In this document: one piece after another, positions 5,404 to 64,000 of the stretch
Layout: each line of letters opens with the position of its first letter
Numbering within the stretch: the first letter of the stretch is position 1
DNA from: Candidatus Nitrososphaera evergladensis SR1
GTDB lineage: Archaea; Thermoproteota; Nitrososphaeria; Nitrososphaerales; Nitrososphaeraceae
Length of the DNA stretch: 64,000 bases
Assembly (NCBI RefSeq): GCF_000730285.1
Contig: NZ_CP007174.1
Location: 1,674,001-1,738,000, forward strand
Reading direction: 5' to 3'
Translations under genes and position numbers: made by a program
The notes under the pieces: generated by a model
Database searches by the model: none
The model's input: only the letters and a program-made list of their open reading frames with translations
Told to the model about the DNA's origin: nothing

Positions 5404-5433
5404 GTGCAGAGAAAAAGATGCGCGTGGCCTGAA

Positions 5434-6780: not shown

Positions 6781-6814
6781 ATTGTTAGAATCAGAAAAAA
6801 TACACGCATTGACA

Positions 6815-6823
6815 GGATATAAA
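6815..6823 (-). promoter_or_regulatory. TATA box of thiC
   Basis: The minus strand reads TTTATATCC here, about 38 nt before the ATG at 6780. Archaeal transcription starts about 25 nt after the box centre, which predicts a leader of roughly 10-15 nt and supports the shorter ThiC start. Confidence 0.55.
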
Positions 6824-6859
6824 GAATATTCCACCACTAATACTTTTAAAAAAAAGGGT

Positions 6860-7063
6860 CTAGCTACTATCCAGCGTGTCTATTACGTCAAGCACCCATC
6901 GCAAAGTGTTTATCCTTATCAAATCGTTTCTGTCCGCCGTACGGGAGAATGCGCCGCCCAGCTCGTCAAAATCCTGCCGCTGGTTGTCTTCTATGGCTCT
7001 TCTTATGTCGCTTATCTCTTGCCGCAGTATCTGTTTCAATCGCTCCAAGTCCTCGCTAGGCAA
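6860..7063 (-). CDS. Small helical protein of 67 residues, unknown function
   Basis: MPSEDLERLKQILRQEIS... is charged and almost wholly helical with heptad-like leucine/isoleucine spacing over residues 5-45 and a C-terminal segment IRINTLRWVLDVIDTL. No Cys, no membrane segment. It stands alone upstream of thiC on the same strand. No family is recognised; a small dimeric coiled-coil protein is the most that can be said. Confidence 0.6.
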   Translation of the reverse strand: MPSEDLERLKQILRQEISDIRRAIEDNQRQDFDELGGAFSRTADRNDLIRINTLRWVLDVIDTLDSS

Positions 7064-7289
7064 GTTCTATCATCATCAACAATTGTCTATACTCATAAAC
7101 GCCCTCAAAATATTTTTGAAACGGCAGCTTGTACGGCAAGAAAAATCTTTCTTGAATGAATCTCATAGGGCTGAAGGCTCGAAAAATGCAAGAGAGCTTT
7201 TGGCTGTCGCTTTAACCGTACGCTTTTAGCTCTTTTGTCTAAACTAGCTTGCTACGCGGATTAACCGAATCAATGAAAAGTAAGGGCAC

Positions 7290-7433
7290 ATGCAGACAGC
7301 AGCAGTAGAGGAGCAGCAGCAAGAGCGAACGGTGTTTTGCGAAACCCACAGCAAGAAATGCAGGTTCGTGTCGCAGGGAGCAAAGTGCGCCTGCTGCGGA
7401 AAACGCGTCTGCCTGTGCAATTATGTTCTGTGA
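7290..7433 (+). CDS. Cys-rich mini-protein of 47 residues (probable zinc site)
   Basis: An ATG at 7290 opens 47 codons ending at TGA 7433. The first 14 residues are Gln/Glu-rich; the rest contains seven Cys (VFCETHSKKCRF, AKCACCGKRVCLC) plus His, a spacing suited to one or two zinc ions, perhaps as a rubredoxin-like knuckle or AN1-like finger. Frameshifted readings of this stretch have no such pattern. No partner gene is evident. Confidence 0.55.
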   Translation: MQTAAVEEQQQERTVFCETHSKKCRFVSQGAKCACCGKRVCLCNYVL

Positions 7434-7532
7434 GCCGACAGGCTGGGCAAGCATATCTTTGATGTCACGATTGCTTTTGCTTTAGCAGGACCCAGTCATA
7501 GTCAGTGGCAGGTGGCGGTTTTTTGCGGCTGG

Positions 7533-7733
7533 TCAGAAATTTATGCACCGGGGCAATACCGGACATTTATGCGGCGGCGATGATGATGATGACGACGCCC
7601 ATGCCTGGCCGCCGTCAAGACTTGCTACAATTGCCCCCAAAACAAGTGCTGCGCCTACTGAAACTGCCATCATTGTTATCTGCGGATGTTTTGCCACAAG
7701 GCTTGCGGTTTTTTGTGCAATCCTATGGAACAT
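7533..7733 (-). CDS. Small exported or membrane protein of 66 residues
   Basis: The product has an N-terminal basic segment (HRIAQKTASLVAKHP), a 20-residue hydrophobic stretch (about residues 20-40) ending in GQAWA, which resembles a signal-peptidase site, then a Ser-rich tail with two Cys. The opposite strand is also open here, so coding status is uncertain; the signal-like topology is the main argument for this strand. Confidence 0.4.
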   Translation of the reverse strand: MFHRIAQKTASLVAKHPQITMMAVSVGAALVLGAIVASLDGGQAWASSSSSSPPHKCPVLPRCINF

Positions 7734-40437: not shown

Positions 40438-41073
40438 TTAGGATAGCGACAAGCGAACTCCGGGCAACTTGATAGAGAGCGCTGCAGAGTCCTTGAATCC
40501 TGACCAGTAGTGGTCGTGGCCATTGTCATCACCGTTGTCATCGTCATCGCAGTTGTCATCGCCGTTGTCGTCCTTGCTGTTGTACGACGTGTATTTGTAA
40601 TAGTCGTGGCCATTGTCATCACCGTTGTCATCGTCATTGTTGCACGTGCAGTCATTCTTGTCGTCGTCATCTTCATCGCTGTTGTTGTAGCTTGACCAGT
40701 AGTGGCCGTTGTCGTTATCATCATCGTCATTGTTGTCGTCGTTGCAATAGCAACTGTTGTTGCCGTTGTCGTCCTCATCATCATTCTTGTCGTCGTCCTT
40801 GCCATAGCTTGACCACTTGTAGTCCTTGTCGTCATCTTCGTCATCGTCGCACTTGCAGTTGTTGTTCTTATCGTCGTCTTTACTGTAGCTTGACCACTTG
40901 TAGTCGTGGCCGTTGTCGTCATCGCACTTGTCGTCACCATTCTTGTCGTCGTCATAGCCAGAGCTTGCAAACGCGGCAGTCGGCATTGTTACTGCCGATG
41001 ACGCGACTGCAAATCCTACGGCCAACAGGGCAAGAATGAAGAACATCTTACCGTTTCCTGTTGCATTTGACAT
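40438..41073 (-). CDS. Secreted Asp-rich repeat protein 1 (211 residues)
   Basis: A signal peptide (FFILALLAVGFAVASSAVTM, cleavage near AAFAS) leads to a mature protein made of alternating acidic blocks (Asp/Asn/Lys with scattered Cys, such as NCKCDDDEDDD) and aromatic motifs (YKWSSY twice, YWSSY, YKYTSY, HYWSGF). A non-repetitive tail (ALSIKLPGVRLSLS) ends it. The acidic blocks would bind divalent cations in the manner of calcium-binding matrix proteins; the Cys could bind copper or form disulfides. The gene is a tandem paralogue of 41341..41778. Confidence 0.85.
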   Translation of the reverse strand: MSNATGNGKMFFILALLAVGFAVASSAVTMPTAAFASSGYDDDKNGDDKCDDDNGHDYKWSSYSKDDDKNNNCKCDDDEDDDKDYKWSSYGKDDDKNDDEDDNGNNSCYCNDDNNDDDDNDNGHYWSSYNNSDEDDDDKNDCTCNNDDDNGDDNGHDYYKYTSYNSKDDNGDDNCDDDDNGDDNGHDHYWSGFKDSAALSIKLPGVRLSLS

Positions 41074-41275
41074 TAAACCGGTCGCACAGTCATGCTTTTA
41101 AAAGGTTGAGCAGAATCTGTTCATAACAATATAATCTTGGAAATTTAAGGTACGACCGACGCATTCCTCCATAATTAGAAGTCAATCTATAAAATTCTAC
41201 ATTCGATCAAAAAACCTTGCTTGCAGCAGGGTCACAGATTCCAGAATTCAAGTATGCAAGAAAAAAGAAGAAAGT

Positions 41276-41296
41276 AGGCTGTCATTGTGACAGCCT
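41276..41296 (-). terminator. Perfect hairpin after the second Asp-rich gene
   Basis: AGGCTGTC and GACAGCCT form an 8-bp stem with loop ATTGT. On the minus strand it follows the stop at 41341 by 45 nt and is followed by a T/C-rich run, as in an intrinsic terminator. Confidence 0.6.
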
Positions 41297-41340
41297 GATT
41301 TTCTCACATTGTTCGACTACTTGCAGTAGTCTTGGTTGGT

Positions 41341-41778
41341 TTAGTCCTTCTTCCAGTAGTGGTCGTGGCCGTTGTCGTCGTCGTCGTCATCGTCGTCATC
41401 GCAGTTGTCGTCATCATCATCGTCGTCGTTGTAGGATATGTTCTTGTAGTCGGCCCAGTTGCCATTGCTGTTGGAGCTTGACCAGTAGTCCTTGCCGTTG
41501 TCGTCATCGTCATCATCATCATCGTCGTCATCGCATCCACAGTTGTCATCGTCGTCGTCATTGTTGTAGCTTGACCAGTGATAGTCGTTCTTGTCGTCAT
41601 CGTCGTCATCGCAGTTGTCGTCATCGTCGTCATCGTAGCTTGTCCACTTGTAGCTGTTGTTGTAGCCACTTGCAAACGCGGCAGTCGGCATTGTTACTGC
41701 CGATGACGCGACTGCAAATCCTACGGCCAGCAACGCAAGAAGGAACGCGGTTTTTTTTGCTGTTAGACTTGACATCAA
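41341..41778 (-). CDS. Secreted Asp-rich repeat protein 2 (145 residues)
   Basis: The signal peptide is nearly identical to that of protein 1 (LLALLAVGFAVASSAVTM), also at DNA level, which shows a recent tandem duplication. The mature part has Asp runs of up to eleven residues with Asn-Cys pairs between them, and the aromatic motifs YKWTSY, YHWSSY and YWSS. It ends HDHYWKKD. Runs of GAC/GAT codons make the gene prone to slippage, so repeat number may vary between strains. Confidence 0.85.
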   Translation of the reverse strand: MMSSLTAKKTAFLLALLAVGFAVASSAVTMPTAAFASGYNNSYKWTSYDDDDDDNCDDDDDDKNDYHWSSYNNDDDDDNCGCDDDDDDDDDDDNGKDYWSSSNSNGNWADYKNISYNDDDDDDDNCDDDDDDDDDNGHDHYWKKD

Positions 41779-42029
41779 TAGAGTCTCGTAGTCGGGGTTT
41801 TAAAGTCTTGAGCAAAAATGATAGATAATGTGTTTATCTTGAAAATCGAAGCTGGACTATATATGTTATTTGACAATTCTATATCGCCAAAGTACATAAT
41901 TTCTGTATCTGTATACGATGCTAGTCGCCAGCCTGAATCTTGGCAAGAACCATTTTTACACAACATTGCGGTTGCAATTGCAACTTTTAAAGATATTCTT
42001 ATGAACAAGTGTAAATATATCCATCATTA

Positions 42030-48591: not shown

Positions 48592-48897
48592 TCAGGGGCC
48601 GTTGTCTAGCTTGGCAGGATGCCAGCCTCGGGCGCTGGAGGTCGCTGGTTCGAATCCGGCCGGCCCCACCACTTTTACACTCATCTCAGGCGGTGACGCA
48701 AGACCGCTACTTACCAGCAGGTTAACCTTTTGTTCAAGCGCGGTTAACCTTTGCGGCAGTTCACTTTCGCCTATGCTGATTTTCTTTCTTGCAAGGTCGC
48801 GCAAAAACTCGCCGAGCGTAACGTAACCGTTCTGCTCAAGCAGGCGATTCAAAGCTACTAGGTCGTCTTCGGTCAATTTAGCACCGATTGTTGGCAT
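48592..48897 (-). CDS. Element-encoded ribbon-helix-helix protein running antisense into tRNA-Pro
   Basis: The N-terminal half (GAKLTEDDLVALNRLLEQNGYVTLGEFLRDLARKK) is a CopG-like ribbon-helix-helix, followed by a coiled coil (LPQRLTALEQKVNLLVSSG). The last 26 codons, from about 48670 to the stop at 48592, are the antisense of the tRNA gene, giving the tail AGFEPATSSARGWHPAKLDNG. This tail is created by integration; in the excised circle the frame would end elsewhere. It is probably an element regulator. Confidence 0.7.
   Translation of the reverse strand: MPTIGAKLTEDDLVALNRLLEQNGYVTLGEFLRDLARKKISIGESELPQRLTALEQKVNLLVSSGLASPPEMSVKVVGPAGFEPATSSARGWHPAKLDNGP
48595..48671 (+). tRNA. tRNA-Pro (anticodon CGG)
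   Basis: Acceptor GGGGCCG pairs with CGGCCCC (48661-48667), discriminator A, CCA encoded (48669-48671). The anticodon stem CCAGC/GCTGG holds the loop CTCGGGC with anticodon CGG, reading CCG. The T-arm is GCTGG-TTCGAAT-CCGGC. It marks the left border of the mobile element. Confidence 0.95.
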
Positions 48898-48906: not shown

Positions 48907-49161
48907 CTATTTCGTCATGTTAACGTAGTTATCGGTAAGCCCTTCTGCATCAAGGTTGATCTGTTGATCATCTAAGAAGTCTTTAATGGCCTGCCAATCG
49001 TCTTTTTTGAGATAACGAGAACCAAGTATGCCACCAAGCAAGACCATGTTCACTACGGTAGTGAAACTAATGTCTTGCTTGCGACCTTTGATCAAGTCGC
49101 CTTGTATGCCGCGCAATTTTTCTTCTAAGAAGTCATTCAAGGTTATGCTTAGCCTATTCAT
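48907..49161 (-). CDS. Ribbon-helix-helix protein, 84 residues
   Basis: RLSITLNDFLEEKLRGIQGDLIKGRKQDISFTTVVNMVLL is an Arc/CopG-like strand-helix-helix with a longer loop than usual; an acidic tail follows. It lies 9 nt upstream of the other ribbon-helix-helix gene on the same strand, so both form a small regulatory operon at the element's left end. Confidence 0.7.
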   Translation of the reverse strand: MNRLSITLNDFLEEKLRGIQGDLIKGRKQDISFTTVVNMVLLGGILGSRYLKKDDWQAIKDFLDDQQINLDAEGLTDNYVNMTK

Positions 49162-49264: not shown

Positions 49265-50206
49265 TTGCCAGAAACCGAATATGAAGAAGGCTTGCGTAAC
49301 AGCATGCCTGCTATTGCAGAAGTAATGTCAAAGCTTTCTGGTCGACGCATAAGTAAACGTCAGCAGCAAGAATTACTGACAGTTCTTTTAGAAATAACAA
49401 AACGTATTATGTCAATGCCTCAAATTGACTATTCGACGGCATCTATTCAAGAGAGAAAACGCAGGGCGAATGAACTTCTAAGCAACCTCTTTCAGATACT
49501 CGAACCTAAACAAAAAATCGATAACCCTTTAGATTTTCTGGCGAATGAACTTTGCAAGAAGATATTTGACCCCGGCGAAGAATCTTATTTGAAGAACACA
49601 AAGTTTGCCGATTATAGAGACGCACTTCTTGAAATTGTAAAGATAACCTACCGCGAGAATAGGCAAAAAGCCCTTACAGAGAGCTTAGCTGATATGCCAG
49701 AAGACGACATTTTTGCGATTTTTCAGAACATGCAGAAGTTAAATCAAAGACTAACATATCTTGATAAGAACCATAAGACGATTAACAAGAAGGTTATCGA
49801 TAGCTATTTTTCACTATACCCTGAGATTTCAAACTTCTTTGAGAGAGTGACCCTTCAATTGTTCGGCCTAAAGAGAATACTCGATGGCGAAAGCATCACC
49901 TATTCACAGCTAAAATTAAGCAAGCTAAGCGATTACGTCAACTCATTGAAAACTCGACCATTTTTTTCAGAACTTGTACAGCCGATGAACATAACCGTTA
50001 GAAACGCGATAGTACACGGCGGCAACGCAGTCAACCCAATTACAAGAACGATCAAATTTACCGACAAGCGAGCGTCGGTAACGATGAGTTATGAAGATTT
50101 TATACAAGCCACTCGAGAATTGGCTTCAGCCACCTACGTCATATCACATCTAGATAGCGCTATAAAGTGCATATTCATCAATTTCATTAGAAGTCTGCCA
50201 AATTGA
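49265..50206 (+). CDS. HEPN-like protein 1 (313 residues)
   Basis: An all-helical protein. Near the C-terminus VRNAIVHGGN (R246, N247, H251) matches the RNxxxH form of the R-x4-6-H active site of HEPN ribonucleases, and the following beta/helix pattern (FTDKRASVTMSYEDFIQATRELA) is usual after it. The first 200 residues are charged helices that could recognise a partner or RNA. HEPN proteins act in toxin-antitoxin and abortive-infection systems. The frame starts with TTG 49265. It converges on a membrane-protein gene with 4 nt between stops. Confidence 0.7.
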   Translation: MPETEYEEGLRNSMPAIAEVMSKLSGRRISKRQQQELLTVLLEITKRIMSMPQIDYSTASIQERKRRANELLSNLFQILEPKQKIDNPLDFLANELCKKIFDPGEESYLKNTKFADYRDALLEIVKITYRENRQKALTESLADMPEDDIFAIFQNMQKLNQRLTYLDKNHKTINKKVIDSYFSLYPEISNFFERVTLQLFGLKRILDGESITYSQLKLSKLSDYVNSLKTRPFFSELVQPMNITVRNAIVHGGNAVNPITRTIKFTDKRASVTMSYEDFIQATRELASATYVISHLDSAIKCIFINFIRSLPN

Positions 50207-52398: not shown

Positions 52399-52474
52399 AA
52401 TTTGTCGTTTTGTCATCGTAGGTGCGCTTTACGTCAGACGTTTTGTGCGTACCGTATGACGAAATGACAAAATC
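52399..52474. repeat. Element palindromic repeat, copy A
   Basis: Begins with TTTGTCGTTTTGTCATCG and ends with TGACGAAATGACAAAAT; the ends contain the inverted pair TTTTGTCAT/ATGACAAAA. The centre holds CGTCAGACG. Copies B (56583) and, inverted, C (61811) share the ends almost exactly while the middle differs. Confidence 0.85.
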
Positions 52475-52508
52475 ATCTCAACCTTAACTTAATGGCATTG
52501 GCATTGCT

Positions 52509-52528
52509 GAGGTCGTGGGTTCGACCTC
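52509..52528. repeat. Hairpin resembling a tRNA T-arm
   Basis: GAGGTCG and CGACCTC form a 7-bp stem around TGGGTT. The sequence GTGGGTTCGACC looks like a T-loop, but no tRNA body is present. Possible terminator or relic. Confidence 0.4.
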
Positions 52529-52592
52529 GTGCAGTCATTTCTTATGATATAGAGATTCTACGCTTGATTGCCGGCTTGAGTACCGATGAAAT

Positions 52593-53027
52593 TTATAGGC
52601 TTGGCAGTATGTTATATTGTAGCTCAAGAACAGAGAATGCGAGTAAAAAGTAAACGATCGGGGCTAGTGCCATGCAGCCCATTACAAAGACATACTTAAA
52701 CCACATTCGCCACATTCTTGGCCTTATGGTTCTTAGGTCTTCTTTGAAGTGCCGCCAGTAATAAACACCGAATAACGCCAATGGGCCGAGCATGAATATC
52801 GTAGGCGCGCCTGACTGATGTATGATACTTGATACTTCTGCGATGCTATACGCGACTGTCATAAAGGTTGCAAGAAAATTAACAAACTTGGGCACGCTCT
52901 TGTATTTGCCTTTCATGCGCTTTGATAGCTTCTTGGCGAGGTGACTTACACCCCACGCACCGGCAACAGACATGCCGCCATATAGAAGCACGCCATAGTC
53001 AATCAACGAATAGCAATGAACGACCAT
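52593..53027 (-). CDS. Four-helix membrane protein (144 residues)
   Basis: Hydrophobic stretches at residues 9-30, 48-68, 72-90 and 108-132 are linked by basic loops (KKLSKRMKGKYKS, RTIRPRMWRMW). No soluble domain or catalytic motif is visible. It is divergent from HEPN-like gene 2, sharing its upstream region. Confidence 0.7.
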   Translation of the reverse strand: MVVHCYSLIDYGVLLYGGMSVAGAWGVSHLAKKLSKRMKGKYKSVPKFVNFLATFMTVAYSIAEVSSIIHQSGAPTIFMLGPLALFGVYYWRHFKEDLRTIRPRMWRMWFKYVFVMGCMALAPIVYFLLAFSVLELQYNILPSL

Positions 53028-53170
53028 ATCTTTATGATTTACTGTGTCTCACCGCTCACAGCGTGTTTGGTTTTTTGGTGTTTCTGTTGGTTTGAAACAG
53101 CCAACGAGCGATAACTTGCTCGAAATAAGCTACTTTAAGAGGGCGCATAACTTGAGCTAATTGGCCGAAT

Positions 53171-53860
53171 TTGACCCTAACCGACGACCTTGCAGAGAAG
53201 CATGAGAAAGACATTGAACTAATGCAAAGAATGTATCTTGAGGCCGAAAGGCAGTTTGTAGAATTCAACTTTATTGTACCTTATGTTGATAACGACGATC
53301 AGGTGTATTCGCCAAGGCTTGTAAGTCTCCTACAGGTCATAGGTTCGCAGATTGATGGTATTTTGAAGATTCTCGCTGGCTTGCTATCGATTGACGTAAA
53401 GCGCGTGACCAAGAAGAAGCAACCTGCATTCACCGATTACACGCAAGTAATAGATAGGCACGGCCTGCTGTCGGTACAACAGATACGATTTAAAGAAAAT
53501 GGCAAAGTACTAACACCTTTCAAGTTTGATTCAAGTCATACAACAGACTGGCGAAAGGCTCTCAATGATACGAAACATGAGTTGCCAAAAGGTGCATACT
53601 CTGGGCAATATGGGCATGTGGTAAATTCGATAGCTGCATTGGCAATTCTGCACGAATTAGTTAATACTGCAACGCATGATGATTTCAGACCATATATCTT
53701 GAACTCTAAGAATTGGTTCGATAATGGCGTATCTATGCGATCATTGGGTTTGCAAAAGAGTCATGATTTTTGTCGTAAGAAGTCGCAAGTGTTTGAGTAT
53801 GCCATGTGGTTCACATTGTCAGAACTAACGCCGACTCTGCCAGAACCATCAGGTCATTAG
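53171..53860 (+). CDS. HEPN-like protein 2, N..KH type (229 residues)
   Basis: The segment DWRKALNDTKHELPKGAYSG (W127, R128, N132, K135, H136) followed by a helix (NSIAALAILHELVN) resembles a branch of HEPN-like proteins with a W..aYN..KH motif in place of R-x4-H. The first 125 residues are helical with a beta hairpin (QQIRFKENGKVLTPFKFD). The frame begins with TTG 53171. A hairpin ACTCGA...TCGAGT (53863-53885) follows the stop. Assignment is by motif only. Confidence 0.55.
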   Translation: MTLTDDLAEKHEKDIELMQRMYLEAERQFVEFNFIVPYVDNDDQVYSPRLVSLLQVIGSQIDGILKILAGLLSIDVKRVTKKKQPAFTDYTQVIDRHGLLSVQQIRFKENGKVLTPFKFDSSHTTDWRKALNDTKHELPKGAYSGQYGHVVNSIAALAILHELVNTATHDDFRPYILNSKNWFDNGVSMRSLGLQKSHDFCRKKSQVFEYAMWFTLSELTPTLPEPSGH

Positions 53861-53953
53861 AAACTCGATTTTGTCAAAGTCGAGTAAATTTGAATTGCGA
53901 CTATATTCTCGCTCGAAATAACGGTTATGGCTATGCCGTGATCGGTTCAACGG

Positions 53954-54346
53954 TCAATTTTGCTCGATGTAGTGGTCTCTTATTGGCTGAGGTATCGCCT
54001 TAACTTCTGACGAACTTAGTATCTTTTCTAATACTTCGAAAGTGGCTGCTAAAGCAACGATGATGTGCGACCAGCTAGCCGATTGCACCTTTTGCCCGTT
54101 TCTAAAATCAAACTCGCAGCCATTTATTGAAATCGACATAGTTGCATTGTTGTGCACGCCGTTCGAATGAAGGCTATTTCTTATGTGTTGTAAGACCTTG
54201 AGAATGTTCAAACATTCGGTTTTGTCTTGTACCGTAATCAGGCTCAACAAGGTTTCTGCATTCTTGAGATATGATCTGGTGACCTTCTTGCCATCTAGGC
54301 AATCTAGAATGTTCACGATTAGGTTTTCGATGCGAAATTGAATCAT
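53954..54346 (-). CDS. HEPN-like protein 3, C-terminal part of a split gene (130 residues)
   Basis: LQHIRNSLHSNGVHN (R56, N57, H60, H65) is the RNx(2)HxnG variant of the HEPN active site, followed by a beta hairpin (MSISINGCEFDFRNGQKV) and a long helix (SHIIVALAATFEVLEKIL). The N-terminus starts abruptly inside what should be a helix (IQFRIENLIVNIL). Its ATG overlaps the stop of the upstream frame by 4 nt, directly after a (TC)12 tract, so this is probably the second half of one HEPN gene. Confidence 0.65.
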   Translation of the reverse strand: MIQFRIENLIVNILDCLDGKKVTRSYLKNAETLLSLITVQDKTECLNILKVLQHIRNSLHSNGVHNNATMSISINGCEFDFRNGQKVQSASWSHIIVALAATFEVLEKILSSSEVKAIPQPIRDHYIEQN

Positions 54347-54696
54347 AGTAACGAGAGAGAGAGAGAGAGAGAGAGACGAAGGTATTGTGAAAGGTTGCGT
54401 TCTAGAAATTCTAACTGAATTGTATCGTCAGCCAGACCGATTAAAGCGCGCCAAGTTTTTTCATGTATTTTGCCTTCTTTTACACTCGCCAAAAGGTTTA
54501 GAATCATAATATTATTAATTATGTCTGCCTTGCAAGTCATTAGCGTAGCCGCACGTACATCTTCGATCTTTACATTGCCCTTAGATTCTTCGTAAAGCTC
54601 AATGCCTTGATTGTCATAGATTCTTTGTAATTGGTTTTGCAATGGGTCTAGTCTTGTTGAAACTTCACGAGCCGAGACAATAGGCGTAAATTGCAT
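54343..54696 (-). CDS. N-terminal part of split HEPN-like gene 3 (117 residues)
   Basis: The product is helical (LDPLQNQLQRIYDNQGIELYEE, AATLMTCKADIINNIMILNLL, KTWRALIGLADDTIQLEFLERNLSQYL) and ends in RLSLSLSLSLL, coded by the dinucleotide tract at 54353-54376. Deleting one TC unit would carry the frame into ATG-ATT-CAA of the downstream gene and yield one protein of about 245 residues, a usual HEPN length. Confidence 0.65.
   Translation of the reverse strand: MQFTPIVSAREVSTRLDPLQNQLQRIYDNQGIELYEESKGNVKIEDVRAATLMTCKADIINNIMILNLLASVKEGKIHEKTWRALIGLADDTIQLEFLERNLSQYLRLSLSLSLSLL
54353..54376. repeat. (GA)12 dinucleotide repeat inside coding sequence
   Basis: Twelve GA units (TC on the coding strand) end 7 nt before the start/stop overlap of the two halves of HEPN-like gene 3. 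Tracts of this length slip during replication, and each one-unit change shifts the frame. Confidence 0.9.
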
Positions 54697-54906
54697 ATAG
54701 TGCAGTTAGATTATCATATTAAAAAGCTCTTGAGATTTTTCAAAGTAATATGGTCGTAGTAATCTCAATAAGAAAATGAGAGCTAGAACGGCTTGTTATC
54801 TAATTCTTATTCATCATTGATTCTAGCAAGGTTATGGTCTTTGTCGAGTTCGCCGAAATGACCTGACCATCAACGCAGCCATTTCGCCTTATTGCAGAGA
54901 TAATTA

Positions 54907-55785
54907 TTAAATCGGGTTTTTTTCGAGGTGGCCTATGAGTCTATAAATGCACTTGCAATAAGGCACAAATACACTCAAGTTCACCAGCACGTCTTCACGC
55001 CTAACTTTCTTGCCGGTGGGGTGGCCCGCATCGTTGCGCGTGATTCGTATCAAATTAAACACGCCGTCTAAGTTAGATTCTAAGTTTTCGTCTATTTCAT
55101 TGCGCCTCTGAACCGGCAGTTGCATAACGACTTTCTTTACTTCATCGAATTTGTATTTAGTTCTCGTATCGTTCTTTAGCTTTTCAAATTTTTCTGGCTG
55201 GCCGTTGCCGGTTACAGCGTTTGAAACTGCGTCTAATAATAATTCAAAAGCACGTTCTGACGCAACGCCGGTCATTACGGCGGCAGAGAATAGATTATTT
55301 CGTCTTAGAGTCTGCAGCGCCTCTGTGATGTAGATCATAATCGTTTCGTCTATACCAGGTATCTCTGTTTTTAGATTGGCGAGATAGCCGTCGGGGTCAT
55401 AGGGCTGCGGCTTCTGACTAAGAACGACAGCACGCCCATATTCGCTAATGTGCATAAACGGCGGTTCTGGGTTATCATAGTTCAAACCCCAGCCAATCAG
55501 ACCCTCTGTCATGAACTCACTGATAAGGTATAACACCTTGTCTTTGTCTTGCCTTTGAAATGCATAACCCTTCTTAACAGCAAGCTCTTCGACATCATGA
55601 ATAATTGATCGAGTTTGCAGACCTGCTCTGTATCTATCGGCTTCTTGTCTAATGTGAAGACTCAAGAGTTCTAGCATCAACGGTCGTAATTCTTCATAGT
55701 TCAAGGGGTGGGCAGTTTCGGTTATTTGGGCTTGCAAATAAGCACTTCGGGTTACGATCAACAACTGACCGTTGACAAAACACAA
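54907..55785 (-). CDS. HEPN-like protein 4 with N-terminal winged-helix-like region (292 residues)
   Basis: Residues 30-120 look like a winged helix (KVLYLISEFMTEGLIGWGLN, MHISEYGRAVVLS); 150-285 form a helical domain with SAAVMTGVASERAFELLLDAV and the motif ITRNDAGHPTGK (R250, N251, H255), typical of DUF4145-like HEPN domains. A final helix (VFVPYCKCIYRLIGHL) closes it. The start is uncertain: TTG 55785, or TTG at about 55704 (LNYEELRPLM). Confidence 0.75.
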   Translation of the reverse strand: MCFVNGQLLIVTRSAYLQAQITETAHPLNYEELRPLMLELLSLHIRQEADRYRAGLQTRSIIHDVEELAVKKGYAFQRQDKDKVLYLISEFMTEGLIGWGLNYDNPEPPFMHISEYGRAVVLSQKPQPYDPDGYLANLKTEIPGIDETIMIYITEALQTLRRNNLFSAAVMTGVASERAFELLLDAVSNAVTGNGQPEKFEKLKNDTRTKYKFDEVKKVVMQLPVQRRNEIDENLESNLDGVFNLIRITRNDAGHPTGKKVRREDVLVNLSVFVPYCKCIYRLIGHLEKNPI

Positions 55786-55886
55786 AAAATTTACTCTATT
55801 TTGTCAAAAATGGCCTACTTGAACAAAGCAAACAACCGAATTTGCTAGATTGTTGATCATCATACCATTTTAGGTAAGCTATATCT

Positions 55887-56567
55887 ATGCGTTTAGAAAA
55901 CAAGCCGATTGTGAGCCTAGGGGCGGCAGACAAACGAGAAATAGCGCACTGCAATCGGGTAATAATTCGTACCTTCGTTGAACTGAAAGCCAAAGGCAAG
56001 ATCAACCCAACTTACGCAGAAGAGCTAGGTCGAATTGAAATATTTTTGCGATATGCAAAAGTCTGTGCTATTGGCATGAACGCAATAGACCGCGTTATCG
56101 ACCCAGATAATGTGCAGAGGTTTCAAGAGTTTAAAAATGACATCTCGCAGTATGGCATCACTGCAGAAAATTTCATGAATGTTCATACCAGCCTACTTCT
56201 TTACAATTTCTTGCAATTCTACTCGCAGGCAGAAAACATCATGATCGCATTACTAAAAGGTGCGACTTATGGCAAAAATAACAATCAGACAGTTACTGGT
56301 AAAGAAGAACTAGGCCGGTTAATCAATGACGTAATAGGTTCAGTATACAAAAATAATGGGCTGAGCGAATTTGTAGATACCAAGTTTAGAAATGCTTTGG
56401 CCCATGGTTGGTGTTTTGTAAACGACGATCGGCTGCACTACTATACCGACGGCACGCTAAAGAATTTGCAAAGTTTGAGCATTTATGAATTACTGTTGAA
56501 GTTTCGTAAGATGAATCTCTTTACCTTAGCGCTAATGCAAACGGTAACGCATACGAGCTGGGTTTAG
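55887..56567 (+). CDS. HEPN-like protein 5 (226 residues)
   Basis: An all-helical protein whose motif TKFRNALAHGWCF (R168, N169, H173) is a good R-x4-H HEPN signature, followed by RLHYYTDGTLKNLQSLSIYELLLKF. The preceding helix (LYNFLQFYSQAENIMIALL) is comparable to the split region of HEPN-like protein 3. It is the last gene of the HEPN/membrane island; repeat copy B follows its stop by 15 nt. Confidence 0.75.
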   Translation: MRLENKPIVSLGAADKREIAHCNRVIIRTFVELKAKGKINPTYAEELGRIEIFLRYAKVCAIGMNAIDRVIDPDNVQRFQEFKNDISQYGITAENFMNVHTSLLLYNFLQFYSQAENIMIALLKGATYGKNNNQTVTGKEELGRLINDVIGSVYKNNGLSEFVDTKFRNALAHGWCFVNDDRLHYYTDGTLKNLQSLSIYELLLKFRKMNLFTLALMQTVTHTSWV

Positions 56568-56582
56568 CATGAGTGGCAGACT

Positions 56583-56657
56583 ATTTGTCGTTTTGTCATC
56601 GAGAGTGCGGTATACTTCAGACGCTTTAGGCACTCGCCCTGACGAAATGACAAAATC
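56583..56657. repeat. Element palindromic repeat, copy B
   Basis: Same ends as copy A (TTTGTCGTTTTGTCATCG and TGACGAAATGACAAAAT), same orientation, similar length, centre TTCAGACG. The inner arms GAGTGC and GCACTC pair although their sequence differs from copy A, so base pairing appears preserved. Confidence 0.85.
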
Positions 56658-56765
56658 AAGGGCGAGTAGTTTCTCTCTAGAATAATCTTCTATCTAGACA
56701 TGATCTAGGCATATAATTCGACACCAGCAAGGTAAAAACGGCCCTCGATTTTCTAGGTAGGGGGG

Positions 56766-56948
56766 TATATAAAGCGCTGGCATGCGGTGCGCAGTATTTA
56801 AAGCGAGCCTGCACTTTTGTTCGACAGTTGCCTAGCAGTGCAATAACGCCGTATTTCGCAATAAGGTTACACCATGTCTAGCCTTATTGTTGCGCTTTTC
56901 GTCGTTGCACTATATAAGCAGGCTCTAGGGCCAAGTTACTATATAAAG
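56766..56948 (+). promoter_or_regulatory. Cluster of four TATA-like boxes
   Basis: TATATAAA (56766), TATTTAAA (56795), TATATAAG (56911) and TATATAAAG (56940) lie in gene-free sequence upstream of the tape-measure operon. At least two are near-perfect archaeal TATA boxes on the plus strand, with no start codon at leaderless distance, so they may drive untranslated RNAs or an operon with a long leader. The repeat AATAAGGTTACA occurs at 56860 and again at 57147, after GCCTAG in both cases. Confidence 0.5.
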
Positions 56949-57042
56949 CCCTGATTACTAAAATGTTAGTTAGTAAGTAAAACTTACCATGAGAACATAG
57001 GCGCAGGCGAAGGTCGGCGGCTCACTTCGCTTCGCTTCGTTC

Positions 57043-57111
57043 GCCGTGCTTTGCTCTAGTCGTGTCGTGGCTGATTGACAACGTAAGCTAGTCTTACGTG
57101 CAAAGCACGGC
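57043..57111. ncRNA. Candidate structured RNA in the 704-base gene-free stretch
   Basis: GCCGTGCTTTGC (57043-57054) pairs perfectly with GCAAAGCACGGC (57100-57111). Inside, ACGTAAG-CTAGT-CTTACGT (57081-57099) forms a second perfect hairpin that stacks directly on the outer stem. The 5' flank holds the purine/pyrimidine repeat CTTCGCTTCGCTTCGTTCG. It lies 103 bases past the last TATA box of the cluster; a small RNA, long leader or origin are all possible. Confidence 0.5.
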
Positions 57112-57271
57112 TCTATGTCATAGTGCACGCCTAGTTCGTGGTTTGAAATAAGGTTACATATTGTATTGCTTTTCTACAAAAGAGGGTTATTTATTATTAA
57201 ACTTGTGGTCAAAGTACTATAGAGTTGTAGGTCTTAGCATTTATTAAGTAGAAATTGTATTTCAGTAACAG

Positions 57272-57430
57272 ATGGCAAGCACTGATACAGAATCGCTTGA
57301 AGTCGCAGTTGTCGGCAAGCTCGTGCCTAACGAGGGTCGATACCTCATAAGCATTAGCAAAGACTACGCCGAGGCATTAGCCCGCATTACTACAAAGCGC
57401 GTTCTGATCAGAGTTACGCCATTGGTATAG
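57272..57430 (+). CDS. Small AbrB-like protein, 52 residues
   Basis: ATG 57272 to TAG 57430 codes for MASTDTESLEVAVVGKLVPN, then RYLISISKDYAEALAR and RVLIRVTPLV. The alternating strand pattern is like a swapped-hairpin AbrB/SpoVT domain, but this is only by shape. It is the first gene after the structured region and lies 9 nt before the next gene. Confidence 0.55.
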   Translation: MASTDTESLEVAVVGKLVPNEGRYLISISKDYAEALARITTKRVLIRVTPLV

Positions 57431-57439
57431 TGAAGAAAC

Positions 57440-57715
57440 ATGAAGACACAGCAATTTACACAAATTGCGCATTATGTAACAAAGGGCGTTAATCTCGCCC
57501 ACACGAAACGACAGAGTTTGAATCTCAGAGTGCCGAGGCTCGTACCTAGGCGGCTGCTTTTGGCTTTCATGTCAAAGAGCAGAAATGTCAAGGTTAGCGG
57601 TGAAAAACTACGCTGCGAATCGTGCGGCATGGTTTGGCACCCGACTGATCGGCGGGGTCAGGTACAAGCGCGCTATATGGCGTGCCCGAAAGGCTGCGAG
57701 GTGCTAAAAGCATGA
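57440..57715 (+). CDS. Zinc-ribbon protein, 91 residues
   Basis: A basic N-terminal half (KRQSLNLRVPRLVPRRLLLAF) precedes a ribbon with LRCESCGMVW and MACPKGCEV. ATG 57572 (MSKSRNVKV) would give only the ribbon half. Its stop overlaps the next start by 4 nt. It may be a nucleic-acid-binding protein of the element. Confidence 0.65.
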   Translation: MKTQQFTQIAHYVTKGVNLAHTKRQSLNLRVPRLVPRRLLLAFMSKSRNVKVSGEKLRCESCGMVWHPTDRRGQVQARYMACPKGCEVLKA

Positions 57716-58029
57716 CGCCAGAACAAGAAGGCGAGATGCTTCAACTTTTGCGGGGCATCTCGACCAAGCTGTCGATATTGACAGACACATCGCCTTTTGC
57801 CCGAATGTCAAAGGCTGAGATCGAAAGAGCAGTTGACCTCAAGCTTGAAACCGTGAGTCTAGGTGAGGTGTGCGAGGTAACAGGCAAACAGGCTGACTCA
57901 GGCACAAACATAGGCGAGGTCGCGCGGGCAATAGAAGACAAAAAACGCGATGACTTTGAGCGCAACTACGAGGCGCGTGCAGAGGCGATTGCAAAGGCAG
58001 CGAAAGAAATAGGTGTCATAATTCGATGA
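57712..58029 (+). CDS. Helical protein of 105 residues
   Basis: ATG 57712, overlapping the preceding stop (ATGA), gives MTPEQEGEMLQLLRGISTKL..., with charged helices throughout (ARAIEDKKRDDFERNYEARAEAIAKAAKEIG). No domain is recognised. It overlaps the next start by 4 nt. Confidence 0.65.
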   Translation: MTPEQEGEMLQLLRGISTKLSILTDTSPFARMSKAEIERAVDLKLETVSLGEVCEVTGKQADSGTNIGEVARAIEDKKRDDFERNYEARAEAIAKAAKEIGVIIR

Positions 58030-58223
58030 GCGACAAATTCGAATTAGTAAACGTCAAGATCAATGATAAGCCTGCGCAGGTCGTGCGCAGACGACCCGGG
58101 CTTGTCGATCTCGAAGACGATGTGCTTGACCTAGCGAAGATTAGTCTTGCCATAAATACAAAAGGCGCATCGCTAGACAAAAACGGCGAAATCGTGGTCG
58201 CGCTAAGGTTTAGGCCCGAATAG
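58026..58223 (+). CDS. Small beta-rich protein, 65 residues
   Basis: MSDKFELVNVKINDKPAQVV, then GLVDLEDDVLDLAKISLAIN and GEIVVALRFRPE. Strand-helix-strand in outline, no Cys. Coupled to the preceding gene by a 4-nt overlap. Function unknown. Confidence 0.6.
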   Translation: MSDKFELVNVKINDKPAQVVRRRPGLVDLEDDVLDLAKISLAINTKGASLDKNGEIVVALRFRPE

Positions 58224-58253
58224 GCGGGCCGAAGCCTACTTTTTTTAGTGCAG

Positions 58254-58736
58254 ATGATGAGAATGAACAACGAAAGAGAGCAGCACTTTTGCGCTTTGTC
58301 TAGGCCCAAGACTGCAAAATGGCTAAAATTCGAACCAGCGACAGGCAAGCCCGTAGCGTCTAAGTTTGCTGGTGGCAGCTACGACGCTTTGCAACATAGG
58401 CCCGTTTCAATAAAGCGGCCAGACTCTAACTACAGGCGCATCTTGGCAGTACTCGCCGAGATTAGAGCTAGCGGTAGAGCGTGGCTAAGTGGTGCAGAGA
58501 TAACCACACTGTACAATCAGAAATACGGCACAACCAAAAAGACCGCAGACATTGAAAAACCACTTTCGCGCTTTTACGTTTGGCAATGGGTCGATTATCG
58601 CGAAACAAAAAGCAGATACGCGCTTGGCTTGTGGTCACTCAAACCAGACGTAAACGTGCAAGATATAGACGATCTCTTTGCTAGAGCCGAATCGCATGAG
58701 CAGATTTTCAACGGCAAAAAAGGTTATGAGAAATGA
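58254..58736 (+). CDS. Winged-helix-like protein, about 160 residues
   Basis: The middle (SNYRRILAVLAEIRASGRAWLSGAEITTLYNQKYGTTKKTADIEKPLSRFYVWQWVDY) looks like a winged helix with a basic recognition helix; an acidic C-terminal helix follows. GTG 58248 and ATG 58254 are both possible starts. It overlaps the next gene by 4 nt. An element transcription regulator is likely. Confidence 0.65.
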   Translation: MMRMNNEREQHFCALSRPKTAKWLKFEPATGKPVASKFAGGSYDALQHRPVSIKRPDSNYRRILAVLAEIRASGRAWLSGAEITTLYNQKYGTTKKTADIEKPLSRFYVWQWVDYRETKSRYALGLWSLKPDVNVQDIDDLFARAESHEQIFNGKKGYEK

Positions 58737-58948
58737 TCAACAAAAAAGGCGACATAAAATTTAGCAAAATCGACGACTATACTGTAGAAGGCTTGCTAAG
58801 CACACTGACAAGAGAGTTTGGGCTATTCTCATGCAAGAAATGCGGCGCTATGGTCATACTGCCAGACACCGAGAACAAAGGCGACACTAGAAGCCTACAA
58901 GCGCATTCGGCGTGGCATGATATGCAGACTAAGGTGAAACGAGAATGA
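58733..58948 (+). CDS. C2H2-type zinc-binding protein, 71 residues
   Basis: FSCKKCGAMVILPD and LQAHSAWHDMQ provide C-x2-C and H-x3-H with a 20-residue spacing, a long finger. The gene overlaps both neighbours by 4 nt, so it is made together with the tape-measure-like protein. Confidence 0.65.
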   Translation: MINKKGDIKFSKIDDYTVEGLLSTLTREFGLFSCKKCGAMVILPDTENKGDTRSLQAHSAWHDMQTKVKRE

Positions 58949-61155
58949 GTTCAAACCCGGCTATAGTAATCGGCGTATCGGCTGTCAATACAGCCGACGC
59001 AGAGCTAAAAAAATTAGACGATAAGGTACGCGAAACCACCGGCATAGTCGAAACTGAAGGCAACAAAATGGCAAGTGTTACGTCTTCGACTACTGAAAAG
59101 GTAAAGAAAAACTATCTCAATATTGCAGGCAGCGTCGCTAGTCTAGGCGCCGGTCTCGTAGGCTTTGCAACTTCATTTAGCACACTCGAAAGAGCGCAGA
59201 CGCGCAGCGACCAAGCGACCCTGACTTATCAGCGCAGCTTGTCGAGGCTTAACGACATGATCGCCGAAGGTGGTCATAGTGCAGATGAGCTAGCGCAACA
59301 GCAAGAAAAAGTACGCATTAATGCAGACAAGGCAAAGCAGTCTCAAGACAATCTCAACGACACTTATACGAATTTTCTGGCGAACATACCTAGCCAGTTT
59401 ATCAACTTCGGCTATTCAGCCAGTAATATCTACGATATGGTAAAGAAGAATCAGCAAGAAAGCGGCGAAACTGTCAAAGAATCGTCAAAGGTATATTCGG
59501 GCGCACTGACGTTAATGAAAGAAGCCAATATCAAGACCGCAGCATCGACCTCATTTCTTGATAGTACGGTGAAAAAGGTGTTTTTGTCAAACCCTTACAT
59601 ACTGCCAATTATCGCTACGTCGGCCGTAGTCACGGCACTCGCATTCAACGTCGGCGGCCTGCGAGATCGTACAAATGAGTTTGGCAAGGCCATAGGCGAC
59701 GCAATACCTGCACTGCGACCATTACTCGACGCAATAGGCTCGCTGCAAAACGTGTTCGGCGGTGCAACTGAGAAGAGCAAAGACCTTACAGACACGACCT
59801 ACGATCTCGGCGATGCTGCCGACGCTACGAAAAAGCACATTCAAACATACAGCGAATACCTCGCAGACGTTGCCGACAAGACCGGCGATGCATCGAGGCA
59901 AAACTTGTATTTCTTGCAGGCTAGCGGTCAGCTTGCAAGCGGCCTAACGCTGACGAACGACCAGCTTGCACTAGCTGCGACTTATCTCAAAGACCATGCA
60001 GATGACACTAACAAGACAACGCAGGCTAACTTTGACCTAGTAGCGTCTGTCTATGGGCTAAACACTGCATTACAACTAAACAACGGCGAGCTAGGCAACC
60101 TTGCCGACGCGCTGACAAAGGCAAAGAAAGCGCAAGACGCAGCCAAGAACGCAGCCGACGACGAGAAAGAAGCACAGCGCAAGGCTACCGAGGCAATACA
60201 AGAACGAGTAAAAGCAAACGTAGAGCTAGCGAGGTCTATGGGCGTGCAGATTAATTTGCACACTACGACCGTAGACCAAACAGACCGCATAAGCGAGCAC
60301 TTGCAAAGTCTGCAAAGTGACTACGAGACAGCACGCAAGAACGCAGAAGACTTTGCCATTGCAAACGGCGTTAATGTTGTCACGGCTGTAAAGGCTACAG
60401 ACGGCCAGCTTGTCAACATTATCGGCACACTTGCACAAACCAAAGCAGGCAGCGCCGATACAGCGCGATCGGTAGTACAAGACTTTCTAATGAGCAAAAA
60501 GGCTGTCGATCAATACAGCAAGTCGGCGGGCGACAGTGGCCTAGCCATAACAGCACTCGGCAATACCTCTCATGATACTTCGGCACAAATCAAAGACGCG
60601 ACTGCATTTATCGACGAGCAATCAAGCAAGACGTTTAACAATTTTGTAATTGGCGCGCAGGCTAGTTTGCTAGCAATCGCTGCACTGCAAGATCGTGCGC
60701 TAGTGTCGCAGTTTGGTCAAGTAGGGGGCATTGCAGGCACAGTAAGCACAGACGCACTAACGGCCGCAGGCTTTGGCAATAACGCGAGCCTTATGCAAAG
60801 TGCTGCAAGCGGTAGACTTGGCGGTGTCTTTACGCCGGGTGGAAGAGTGCTCGACACAGGCGGCACACTGTACGAAGACGTTATTGGCATAGGCAAAGAC
60901 ACAGGCACGCCGCATTATTTGCACAAAAACGAGCTAGTAATACCACCTAGCAAGTTGGGCCGTTTGAGTGCTGTACGCAATGACGTAGCGGGGCATAGTA
61001 AACCAAAACGCGGGGTAATCTTTAGTTTCAAGATCGGCGACGATGTGATTGCTACAGCTAAGATACCAGACATGTACGCTGTGTTAGAAGGCGAATACGG
61101 TAACGATATCGTAATAAATGCCGGCGACAAAGGCTGGCGACGCCGCTATTTCTAA
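58945..61155 (+). CDS. Tape-measure-like large protein with membrane segments (736 residues)
   Basis: Long coiled coils (residues 20-50, 90-140 and 390-480, Ala/Lys/Gln-rich) alternate with hydrophobic segments (NIAGSVASLGAGLVGFATSF near 73; YILPIIATSAVVTALAFNVGG near 220). Towards the end, GRLGGVFTPGGRVLDTGG and GTPHYLHKNELVIPPSK resemble the C-terminal part of phage tail tape-measure proteins, where Gly-rich sequence precedes a GPELVVP-like motif. It is by far the longest gene of the element and is coupled to upstream genes. A virion structural or DNA-delivery protein is inferred; a conjugation-type membrane protein is the alternative. Confidence 0.6.
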   Translation: MSSNPAIVIGVSAVNTADAELKKLDDKVRETTGIVETEGNKMASVTSSTTEKVKKNYLNIAGSVASLGAGLVGFATSFSTLERAQTRSDQATLTYQRSLSRLNDMIAEGGHSADELAQQQEKVRINADKAKQSQDNLNDTYTNFLANIPSQFINFGYSASNIYDMVKKNQQESGETVKESSKVYSGALTLMKEANIKTAASTSFLDSTVKKVFLSNPYILPIIATSAVVTALAFNVGGLRDRTNEFGKAIGDAIPALRPLLDAIGSLQNVFGGATEKSKDLTDTTYDLGDAADATKKHIQTYSEYLADVADKTGDASRQNLYFLQASGQLASGLTLTNDQLALAATYLKDHADDTNKTTQANFDLVASVYGLNTALQLNNGELGNLADALTKAKKAQDAAKNAADDEKEAQRKATEAIQERVKANVELARSMGVQINLHTTTVDQTDRISEHLQSLQSDYETARKNAEDFAIANGVNVVTAVKATDGQLVNIIGTLAQTKAGSADTARSVVQDFLMSKKAVDQYSKSAGDSGLAITALGNTSHDTSAQIKDATAFIDEQSSKTFNNFVIGAQASLLAIAALQDRALVSQFGQVGGIAGTVSTDALTAAGFGNNASLMQSAASGRLGGVFTPGGRVLDTGGTLYEDVIGIGKDTGTPHYLHKNELVIPPSKLGRLSAVRNDVAGHSKPKRGVIFSFKIGDDVIATAKIPDMYAVLEGEYGNDIVINAGDKGWRRRYF

Positions 61156-61172
61156 AGACGAGGCTATCAAAA

Positions 61173-61577
61173 ATGACCAAATATTGCGCACAAATGTTAC
61201 GTAAGACTATTCAGCTCGTTTTGCCTATACAAATACAGGTTAGCATGACTACTGAAGATGAACGCAGAGAGATTTACTATCTCAGACTATTGGTAATAGT
61301 GAAAGAAGGTGCTAAAGGCAAGTATTTCGAAGTTCGCGGTGAGAAAAAATGGTCATACTCGGCAGATATTGCTAGTCAATTCGAGAAGAAATACAACGAA
61401 TACACAAGCGCAAGAACGGTAGCAATGAACATGCGGTACCTTCAGAGCAAGGGGCTTGTCGTGAGCACGAAGAGCAGAGACGGCAAACGCACGCTTTGGG
61501 CGATAGAACAAAAGGCAGATTTTGAGTTGAATCATTCGGGTAATCTAGATGACCATAGAGAGAGTATCGAGTGCTAG
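61173..61577 (+). CDS. Winged-helix protein, 134 residues (or 110 from the inner start)
   Basis: Residues 30-115 form a winged helix: YYLRLLVIVKEGAKGKYFEV, SYSADIASQFEKKYNEYTSARTVAMNMRYLQSKGLV, then a wing (STKSRDGKRTLWAIE). ATG 61245 (MTTEDERREIYY) would remove a hydrophobic leader of 24 residues; the 17-nt distance to the previous stop favours 61173. It overlaps the next gene by 29 nt. Confidence 0.7.
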   Translation: MTKYCAQMLRKTIQLVLPIQIQVSMTTEDERREIYYLRLLVIVKEGAKGKYFEVRGEKKWSYSADIASQFEKKYNEYTSARTVAMNMRYLQSKGLVVSTKSRDGKRTLWAIEQKADFELNHSGNLDDHRESIEC

Positions 61578-61770
61578 AGGCAGAAATGACAAGCCAGACT
61601 TTAGGGTAAAAGTATCGTACCGAAAGGGCAAGACTCGCGGTACAATCGCTTGGCCGGCGACAATTCTAGATGCATGGGGCTACCCTGAATACCTAGTATT
61701 CGCGGGCAACGGCGACGGTTCTGCGATTGTTCGGCCAGTAGCGAAAGAGAAGGTTGGCGTTACCGAGTGA
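61549..61770 (+). CDS. Small beta-rich DNA-binding-like protein, 73 residues
   Basis: MTIERVSSARGRNDKPDFRV, then KVSYRKGKTRGTIAWPATI and YLVFAGNGDGSAIVRPV. The strand pattern and basic residues recall AbrB-like or Cren7/Sso7-type small beta barrels. It is the last gene of the plus-strand operon; repeat copy C follows. Confidence 0.6.
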   Translation: MTIERVSSARGRNDKPDFRVKVSYRKGKTRGTIAWPATILDAWGYPEYLVFAGNGDGSAIVRPVAKEKVGVTE

Positions 61771-61810
61771 CGAAGTAACAGCCAAGAGAGGCAGAATCGT
61801 GCTCAAATCG

Positions 61811-61909
61811 TATTTTGTCATTTCGTCACGGCACATGCGCAAAACGTCAGACGCTGTTACAAGCTGCGTCAGACGAAATAGGCTCTCTCGATGACAAAAC
61901 GACAAATTC
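61811..61909. repeat. Element palindromic repeat, copy C (inverted)
   Basis: The reverse complement begins TTTGTCGTTTTGTCATCG and ends TGACGAAATGACAAAAT as in copies A and B, but has about 23 extra bases in the middle, with CGTCTGACG twice in either sense. It lies in the gap between the plus-strand operon and the minus-strand integrase module. Confidence 0.85.
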
Positions 61910-62007
61910 GAGAATGAGCACGAAATACGTTACTTGACGAAGGTATTTTGTCTTTGAATAGGTGATGAATAAGAAGAATCTTCACAATTTCTCTTTCATA
62001 AACTATT

Positions 62008-63278: not shown

Positions 63279-63544
63279 TGCTCGCACACCTGACCCTCGA
63301 TGACTTCGAATTGCTCGGCGCAGTCTTTGCAAAGTCTGCGAATCGTCGTATCGCTCTTGTCACCTTTCGTCTTGTGAGTCTGAAAGTCTTTAATGCCGCA
63401 CACGGTCTCGGTTTTGCCTGTCGAGTCTTCGCGCTGTGCGTAATGTACGACGCCGCCATAGACCACCCACACGCAAGTGCAAAAGCTAAGCCCTTCGTTC
63501 AAGTCGAACTCGATCGTAATGTCGTCGTCTTTATTTTCGCGCAT
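63275..63544 (-). CDS. Small Cys-rich protein, 89 residues, between integrase and PIN gene
   Basis: The product (MRENKDDDITIEFDLNEGLSFC...) has Cys at SFCTCVW, ETVCGI and RRLCKDCAEQ, and a His (VHYAQRE), so it may bind zinc. It shares one base with the integrase stop (TAATG) and four with the PIN-like start, making a three-gene coupled unit. An antitoxin-like partner of the PIN protein or an integrase accessory (excisionase-like) factor are both possible. Confidence 0.6.
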   Translation of the reverse strand: MRENKDDDITIEFDLNEGLSFCTCVWVVYGGVVHYAQREDSTGKTETVCGIKDFQTHKTKGDKSDTTIRRLCKDCAEQFEVIEGQVCEQ

Positions 63545-64000
63545 TATGCAGCACCTACCTTTTCTTGTAGCTCATCAACCAGCTTGCGCACCTTCGCTGC
63601 ATTTACGGCAAAGTCTGGCCGGTAGTAGTGCCTTGCAAACACGCTCTTTGGCGTTCGCCCTTGTAGCAAGTCTACAAACTCGCTCTCAATGCCATTTTGC
63701 CTAAGCCAAGTGCCGAAAATCTTGCGGCCATAGTTTAATTGCATAGGGTGGTCTCGGCGCTTTAGATATGATCTAATTGCTTGGTAGCTGTCGCACGACT
63801 GCCTTGCAAGCTCTAGCATTTCAGTGTCTACGAGCGAGATGTACGCCTTTTTTGTTCGCCTGATAAACAGTTCTTTGAATTTGTAGTGCTCTAGAATGCC
63901 TTTGTCTTCGTCGTAATAGTCTTGCGCGCCTTGCTTTAGCAAGCCTGCAGCCTTGCAAACCTCATCGGCCCGCAAGCCAAGTACGGTCGCAAGAATGAAC
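63544..64000 (-). CDS. SSV-type tyrosine integrase, C-terminal catalytic domain (5' end outside window)
   Basis: The frame is open to base 64000. LATVLGLRADEVCKAAG carries the first catalytic Arg; FIRRTKKAYISL the beta-hairpin Lys; QLNYGRKIFGTWLRQNG the second Arg; and LLQGRTPKSVFARHYYRP the nucleophile Tyr, with flanking residues typical of SSV/pNOB8-type archaeal integrases. The enzyme recombines the element at the tRNA-Pro 3' end. It heads the minus-strand module 64.0-62.0 kb. Its intactness cannot be judged beyond the edge. Confidence 0.9.
   Translation of the reverse strand, partial: FILATVLGLRADEVCKAAGLLKQGAQDYYDEDKGILEHYKFKELFIRRTKKAYISLVDTEMLELARQSCDSYQAIRSYLKRRDHPMQLNYGRKIFGTWLRQNGIESEFVDLLQGRTPKSVFARHYYRPDFAVNAAKVRKLVDELQEKVGAA

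Follow-up and report, generated by a model that had tools for sequence, protein, structure and literature searches.

What function is served by three palindromic units that share their arms and lie dispersed over one integrated element of Candidatus Nitrososphaera evergladensis SR1? The units, here designated A, B and C, are located in a 64,000-nucleotide stretch of the genome (the window), and all three belong to an element of 15.8 kb that has tRNA-Pro(CGG) as its integration site. We tentatively propose that they could well be composite sites, dispersed along the element and recognised by a DNA-binding protein from its own cargo.

Unit A (52400-52473, plus strand) consists of an arm at 52400-52415, a 16-bp spacer, the core CGTCAGACG at 52432-52440, a further 16-bp spacer and an arm at 52457-52473. 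Unit B (56583-56656, plus strand) has the same layout around the core CTTCAGACG, and unit C (61812-61907, minus strand) is inverted and includes two CGTCTGACG cores separated by 13 bp, with the 16-bp spacers retained. The unit lengths are 74, 74 and 96 nt, respectively. The left end TTTGTCGTTTTGTCATCG matches exactly three times in the window (52401 and 56584 on the plus strand, 61889 on the minus strand) vs 0.04 expected from shuffles, and the right end TGACGAAATGACAAAAT likewise three times (52457 and 56640, plus; 61812, minus) vs 0.17 expected. No fourth match to the left end is present in the window at up to 3 mismatches, and the 2,954,373-base (2.95-Mb) genome has exact arms nowhere but in these units. 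The three-copy repeat with common ends reported in the initial annotation is hence borne out, exact ends occurring only at A, B and C, far above shuffle expectation; so is the intergenic position of the copies, as judged from the ORF map. The CGTC-type centres are confirmed too, with CTTCAGACG in B and CGTCWGACG in A and C, the latter motif being found four times in the window vs 0.3 expected, three of the four inside these two units.

Aligned in one orientation, A and B both have the layout ARM16 - 16 bp - core 9 - 16 bp - ARM17, a single dyad relating arms and core, with the core exactly centred (16-9-16), and C reads ARM16 - 16 - core 9 - 13 - core 9 - 16 - ARM17. The spacers measure 16 bp in A, B and C, a length that is unchanged despite sequence divergence. 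The arms are each built from an 8-bp box repeated in tandem (TTTTGTCR, TTTYGTCA), and they pair over 15 bp, of which two positions are G-T/G-U wobbles that fall on one strand in all three units. The ends, earlier described as partial inverted repeats, do pair in this manner, and the anatomy is tighter than that description, featuring a shared dyad and fixed spacers. We note that no copy has lost the two asymmetric positions of the arms, which are needless for a plain homodimer and in this respect at odds with an operator. The unit borders are sharp and the sequences flanking A, B and C are unrelated; those of C (61797-61923) hold an additional inverted pair, TCGTGCTC/GAGCACGA.

All 35 end bases common to the three copies are identical. 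The interiors of A and B match at 25 of 41 positions vs 10.4 expected at random, with homology throughout, which shows that A and B share ancestry and that all three copies descend from one unit. At the A/B interior rate, 35 unchanged end bases would be obtained with P ~3e-8. The combination of identical arms and diverged interiors indicates that the arms are constrained, or homogenised by gene conversion. In addition, inner arms had been reported to pair in A and B; this pairing exceeds chance by little in A (P 0.04) and B (P 0.01) and is absent in C, and as the complementarity is marginal it carries no weight here.

The host element is delimited by a 52-bp direct repeat, the left att at 48624-48675 (plus strand) representing the 3' end of tRNA-Pro(CGG) and the right att lying just outside the window at 64368-64419 (L033:18368-18419). 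A tyrosine integrase of the archaeal Phage_integr_3 family is encoded on the minus strand at the right end of the element (63544-64000, full gene to 64416; L033:17544-18416), and two ribbon-helix-helix-like genes (48592-48897 and 48907-49161, minus strand; a label that derives from a sequence pattern, with no Pfam match) belong to a backbone common to small sister elements. One sister, of ~4.4 kb, resides in the same genome in tRNA-Pro(TGG) (814.5-818.9 kb); its integrase is 62% identical, and it has a gene homologous to that at 48592; the other, of ~3.5 kb, occupies tRNA-Arg in another genus of the family and holds both ribbon-helix-helix-like genes at ~72% DNA identity. The palindromes fall within the 12-13 kb of cargo that is additional to these small elements, neither of which contains the palindrome or even a single TTTTGTCA box. 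The sisters share the backbone, without this cargo and without sites. With its integration in a tRNA gene, a tyrosine integrase and the usual size, the host element falls in the class of cryptic thaumarchaeal elements described in a survey (PMC6563490).

Between B and C lies a cargo operon (57274-61770, plus strand) of co-oriented genes that include small putative DNA-binding proteins. It encodes a tape-measure-like protein of 736 aa (58945-61155), a winged-helix-like protein (61173-61577) and an AbrB-like protein (61549-61770), all on the plus strand. The fold labels are weak, those of the candidate binders included, a point that counts against the operator reading, and structure models of the two cargo proteins adjoining C are too weak for fold assignment. 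Homologues of the 61173 and 61549 proteins were not found in 400 genomes of the class, just as the sites have no counterpart there, so that sites and these cargo proteins are private together; searches of viral, phage and plasmid collections with the tape-measure, integrase and cargo proteins returned nothing usable, and defence-system models gave no match to the cargo. The three units occupy three of the four largest intergenic gaps of the element. A alone is positioned directly upstream of an ORF start; B begins 16 bp past the stop of ORF 55887-56567 and opens a 706-bp gene-free gap, and B and C both follow gene ends, a location that is unusual for operators. The GC content rises across B from ~0.41-0.43 to 0.47-0.51 in the 57274-61770 operon and drops again past C. 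Placement at module boundaries, as initially annotated, is accordingly supported by composition at B and C, with no composition step at A.

How would the units operate? Dyad symmetry, fixed box spacing and conservation above the surroundings, as required of operator-type sites, are all found, and symmetry, fixed spacing, conserved boxes, diverged spacers and confinement to one element together form the pattern expected from a multimeric DNA-binding protein. Operators of an element-wide regulator represent the best supported of the four options originally listed, on the grounds of the shared dyad, the fixed spacing and the constrained arms. The ribbon-helix-helix proteins suggested at that point are less likely binders, as the sister elements retain such genes without sites, making a binder in the private cargo more likely. 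The most likely candidate is to be sought among the small putative DNA-binding proteins encoded between B and C, such as those of the AbrB-like and winged-helix-like ORFs near C. It would act as a symmetric multimer on the paired TTTTGTCR/TTTYGTCA arm boxes, 8 bp apart, and the same multimer would also contact the CGTCWGACG core, held 16 bp from each arm. Occupancy of three sites 4-5 kb apart may then provide operator/insulator function or looping, delimiting gene blocks. An everted perfect pair, TTGACAAAA-N18-TTTTGTCAA, at 55772-55807 contains the same 8-bp box TTTTGTCA as the arms and sits between A and B, at the divergent gap 55786-55886 (P ~0.02 for any such 9-bp pair there), an arrangement that would fit the use of TTTTGTCA as a protein-binding box. 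Single TTTTGTCA boxes elsewhere in the element display no clear excess over the nearby chromosome.

Related architectures are known. MetJ-type operators are composed of tandem 8-bp boxes bound by ribbon-helix-helix proteins, and the arms described here similarly form two tandem 8-bp boxes inverted about a dyad in an element with ribbon-helix-helix-like genes; unlike in the MetJ case, the homologous proteins occur in sister elements that have no boxes. Temperate elements offer another parallel in the centromeres of phage N15 and the omega-repressor repeat sites of pSM19035, palindromic or multi-box sites that occur in several copies along one element close to the limits of genes. A, B and C are distributed in the same way, but differ in the arms-plus-core layout with 16-bp spacers and in the lack of ParA/ParB-like genes among those detected in the element (no accepted match; HTH_ParB for 54343-54696 at E 0.055 is below the cut-off), which disfavours a partition role. 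The replication iterons put forward in the initial annotation are unsupported: membership requires clustered direct repeats by an initiator gene, and neither is found, Pfam detecting no replication initiator in the element and the sites being dispersed 4-5 kb apart, one of them inverted.

The strongest rival is site-specific recombination at module borders, with a recombinase that targets either the core or the strand in its folded form, since the units have a direction and lie on either side of gene blocks; we consider it possible, if on the whole unlikely. Recombination of A with B would delete 4.2 kb of cargo and that of B with C would invert the 5.2-kb operon, allowing module exchange. The sharp unit ends with unrelated flanks, the position of all three units in large gaps, the compositionally distinct operon between B and C and a conserved arm asymmetry that makes each site directional are compatible with such a role. 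However, the tRNA-type integrase is the sole recombinase found in the element, Phage_integr_3 alone being recovered, the sisters with a homologous integrase have no sites, and neither an alternative arrangement nor a module homologue was seen. The suggested use in module swapping therefore retains the composition shifts at B and C in its favour and lacks a second arrangement or further recombinase. Integron attC sites are imperfect palindromes with conserved ends, a variable centre and strand polarity. The present units share these traits, with conserved arms, a variable tip and lengths of 74, 74 and 96 nt, within the 57-141 nt folded-strand range; membership is rejected, as RYYYAAC/GTTRRRY core sites are absent (the unit ends read ATTTGTC and GACAAAAT), as is an integron integrase, and as there are three sites only, in mixed orientation and around multi-gene blocks. 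attC sites are known also from Archaea (PMC9668308). That the units are directional sites of an integron-like cassette system of archaeal mobile elements, with a recombinase among the private cargo genes and arm asymmetry setting strand choice, would be a distinctly improbable extension of the recombination reading.

Transposition within the element of a small non-autonomous mobile or REP/MITE-like unit would explain homologous 74-96-bp intergenic units with inverted ends, sharp borders and unrelated flanks, and terminal inverted repeats are indeed present as 15-bp arms with two wobbles. We regard this origin, also raised in the initial annotation, as rather improbable: target-site duplications are missing (chance matches of at most 3 bp in A and C, none in B), the genome holds neither a fourth copy nor a larger element with the same ends, and dead copies need neither fixed spacing nor fully conserved arms. 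MITE membership is likewise rejected on the lack of a target-site duplication and of further copies or an autonomous partner in the own genome, the 400 class genomes, IMG/VR and GTDB; ends scattered elsewhere, the outcome held to favour a MITE, were not observed, the genome-wide search finding no copies outside the element and the arms being absent from IMG/VR and GTDB. REP elements are 20-40 bp long, occur in high copy and carry a GTAG or CGTC tag at one end (PMC3733652). A, B and C share with them the form of short intergenic palindromes in several copies and the CGTC motif, and are set apart by 74-96-bp units, three copies, a central CGTC and the absence of target-site duplications. Folded as RNA, A reaches -35.4 kcal/mol, with z -5.7 on its own strand and -2.8 on the opposite one, and z for A, B and C is -5.7, -4.2 and -5.3 on the wobble-favoured strand vs -2.8, -2.6 and -4.7 on the other. 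That strand folds better because the outer-stem wobbles all lie on it, a same-strand placement expected by chance about half the time for the two outer wobbles; a third wobble in the interior of A is on the same strand. RNA hairpins, either short transcripts or mRNA 3' structures, would agree with this strand bias and the 15-bp stem, and are nevertheless quite improbable. The unit strand is sense after the B gene, and at A and C it runs antisense to the closest gene upstream, an inconsistency that argues against an mRNA role; as free folds the interiors of B and C are ordinary, no better than chance, and that of A is marginal; and Rfam yields no match for the units, returning two tRNAs alone from the window at gathering thresholds. 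Finally, chance or relic sequence without present function would suit a family confined to one genome, yet has a very slim prospect in view of the few chance matches expected (~0.04 and 0.17) and of arm conservation vs interior divergence, the P ~3e-8 holding unless gene conversion equalises the arms.

The composite site is private to the element: exact and relaxed patterns, a covariance model and BLAST, applied to as many as 400 genomes of the class and to IMG/VR and GTDB, revealed no true second family. The exact two-arm pattern recovers the own copies only in these collections, and an arm-plus-core half-site pattern gives no match. A covariance model run against 70 genomes of the family returns two weak matches, both without arms; BLAST of C against plasmids and phages returns a single short chance match; and dispersed palindrome families at integrase-related loci are limited to the own element, apart from one chance pair in L122. 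A relaxed inward pattern detects sites in Nocardioides, Cellvibrionaceae, Phycisphaerae and two viral contigs (GTDB, IMG/VR), rejected as unrelated for their other arms and lack of common context. An everted pattern detects four IMG/VR contigs with three distinct sites, of which the one examined closely, on contig L163 with its bacteriophage-type terminase- and portal-like proteins, is judged convergent. Palindromes of this kind are not mentioned in the main-text passages of the survey of thaumarchaeal integrated elements (PMC6563490).

Small thaumarchaeal integrated elements are mostly cryptic, and their control and gene turnover are poorly understood. A site of fixed geometry that the gene blocks of one element have in common, and that its stripped-down sisters lack, points to a control or rearrangement system that arrives with the cargo, and it can be synthesised as a short DNA bait with which to fish for the protein. 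Were the integron-like reading true, thaumarchaeal elements could delete, invert and swap gene blocks.

In a genome of the same genus, a palindrome of 105 bp whose arms, TGACAAAATGACA/TTTTGTCATTTTGTCA, are everted lies beside an RNase P RNA gene (G121:C21:39857-39961). This palindrome and the left side of C both carry TCGTGCT-N9-TTTTGTCATTTYGTCACGGCA, and ~80 bp from it is a stretch resembling 57015-57046 of the window. The two matches are individually weak (E 0.012 and 7e-4); that they lie so close together renders descent plausible, though not proven, as similar TGACAAAATGACA palindromes are found also in an unrelated bacteriophage-like contig. Going by these shared motifs, the palindrome may be a distant relative of the units.

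The 15.8-kb host element is an enlarged relative of a thaumarchaeal family of integrative elements of 3.5-4.4 kb, which occupy tRNA-Pro and tRNA-Arg (L109:14495-18887, in the same genome, and L113:about 4050-7535, in another genus) and carry an integrase, ribbon-helix-helix-like genes and a PDDEXK-like protein with the motif GIKGE...DFILYPSG..VEVKT. Within the cargo of the larger element, several ORFs (window 49265-50206, 53954-54346, 54907-55785 and 55887-56567) contain Rx4H-type motifs (RNAIVH, RNSLH, RNDAGH, RNALAH) that are reminiscent of HEPN ribonucleases; these ORFs have neither an accepted Pfam match nor a PADLOC match. A 736-aa tape-measure-like protein (58945-61155) has distant relatives in two compared genomes, G132 and G137, and no capsid or portal genes are recognisable near its gene.

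Downstream of palindrome B, 0.6 kb (56660-57273) is devoid of genes and possibly represents an origin or small RNA genes. Within it, TATATAAAGCsCTG boxes recur at an interval of 174 bp and two AATAAGGTTACA repeats are spaced by 287 bp; a perfect 12-bp hairpin lies at 57043-57111. Another perfect hairpin, ACTCGA-TTTTGTCAAAG-TCGAGT (53863-53885), lies between convergent ORFs; its loop contains the TTTTGTCA box, and an inverted copy of the sequence flanking the hairpin on the right, GAGTAAATTT, lies near 55787-55796.

Outside the element, a 105-bp composite palindrome adjoining the RNase P RNA gene of a same-genus genome (L069:14858-14962, G121:C21) may be a distant relative of copy C. Dispersed 63-bp palindromes in Nocardioides genomes (L166, L167, L169, L171-L173), at least four in one genome, combine conserved arms TGTCGTTTGGTCACCAAC with variable centres; they resemble the host-element palindromes in shape but differ in sequence. 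Also beyond the element, two tandem ORFs (40438-41815) encode very Asp/Asn-rich proteins, in which Ser/Tyr/Trp motifs (KWSSY repeats) follow a signal-like N-terminus.
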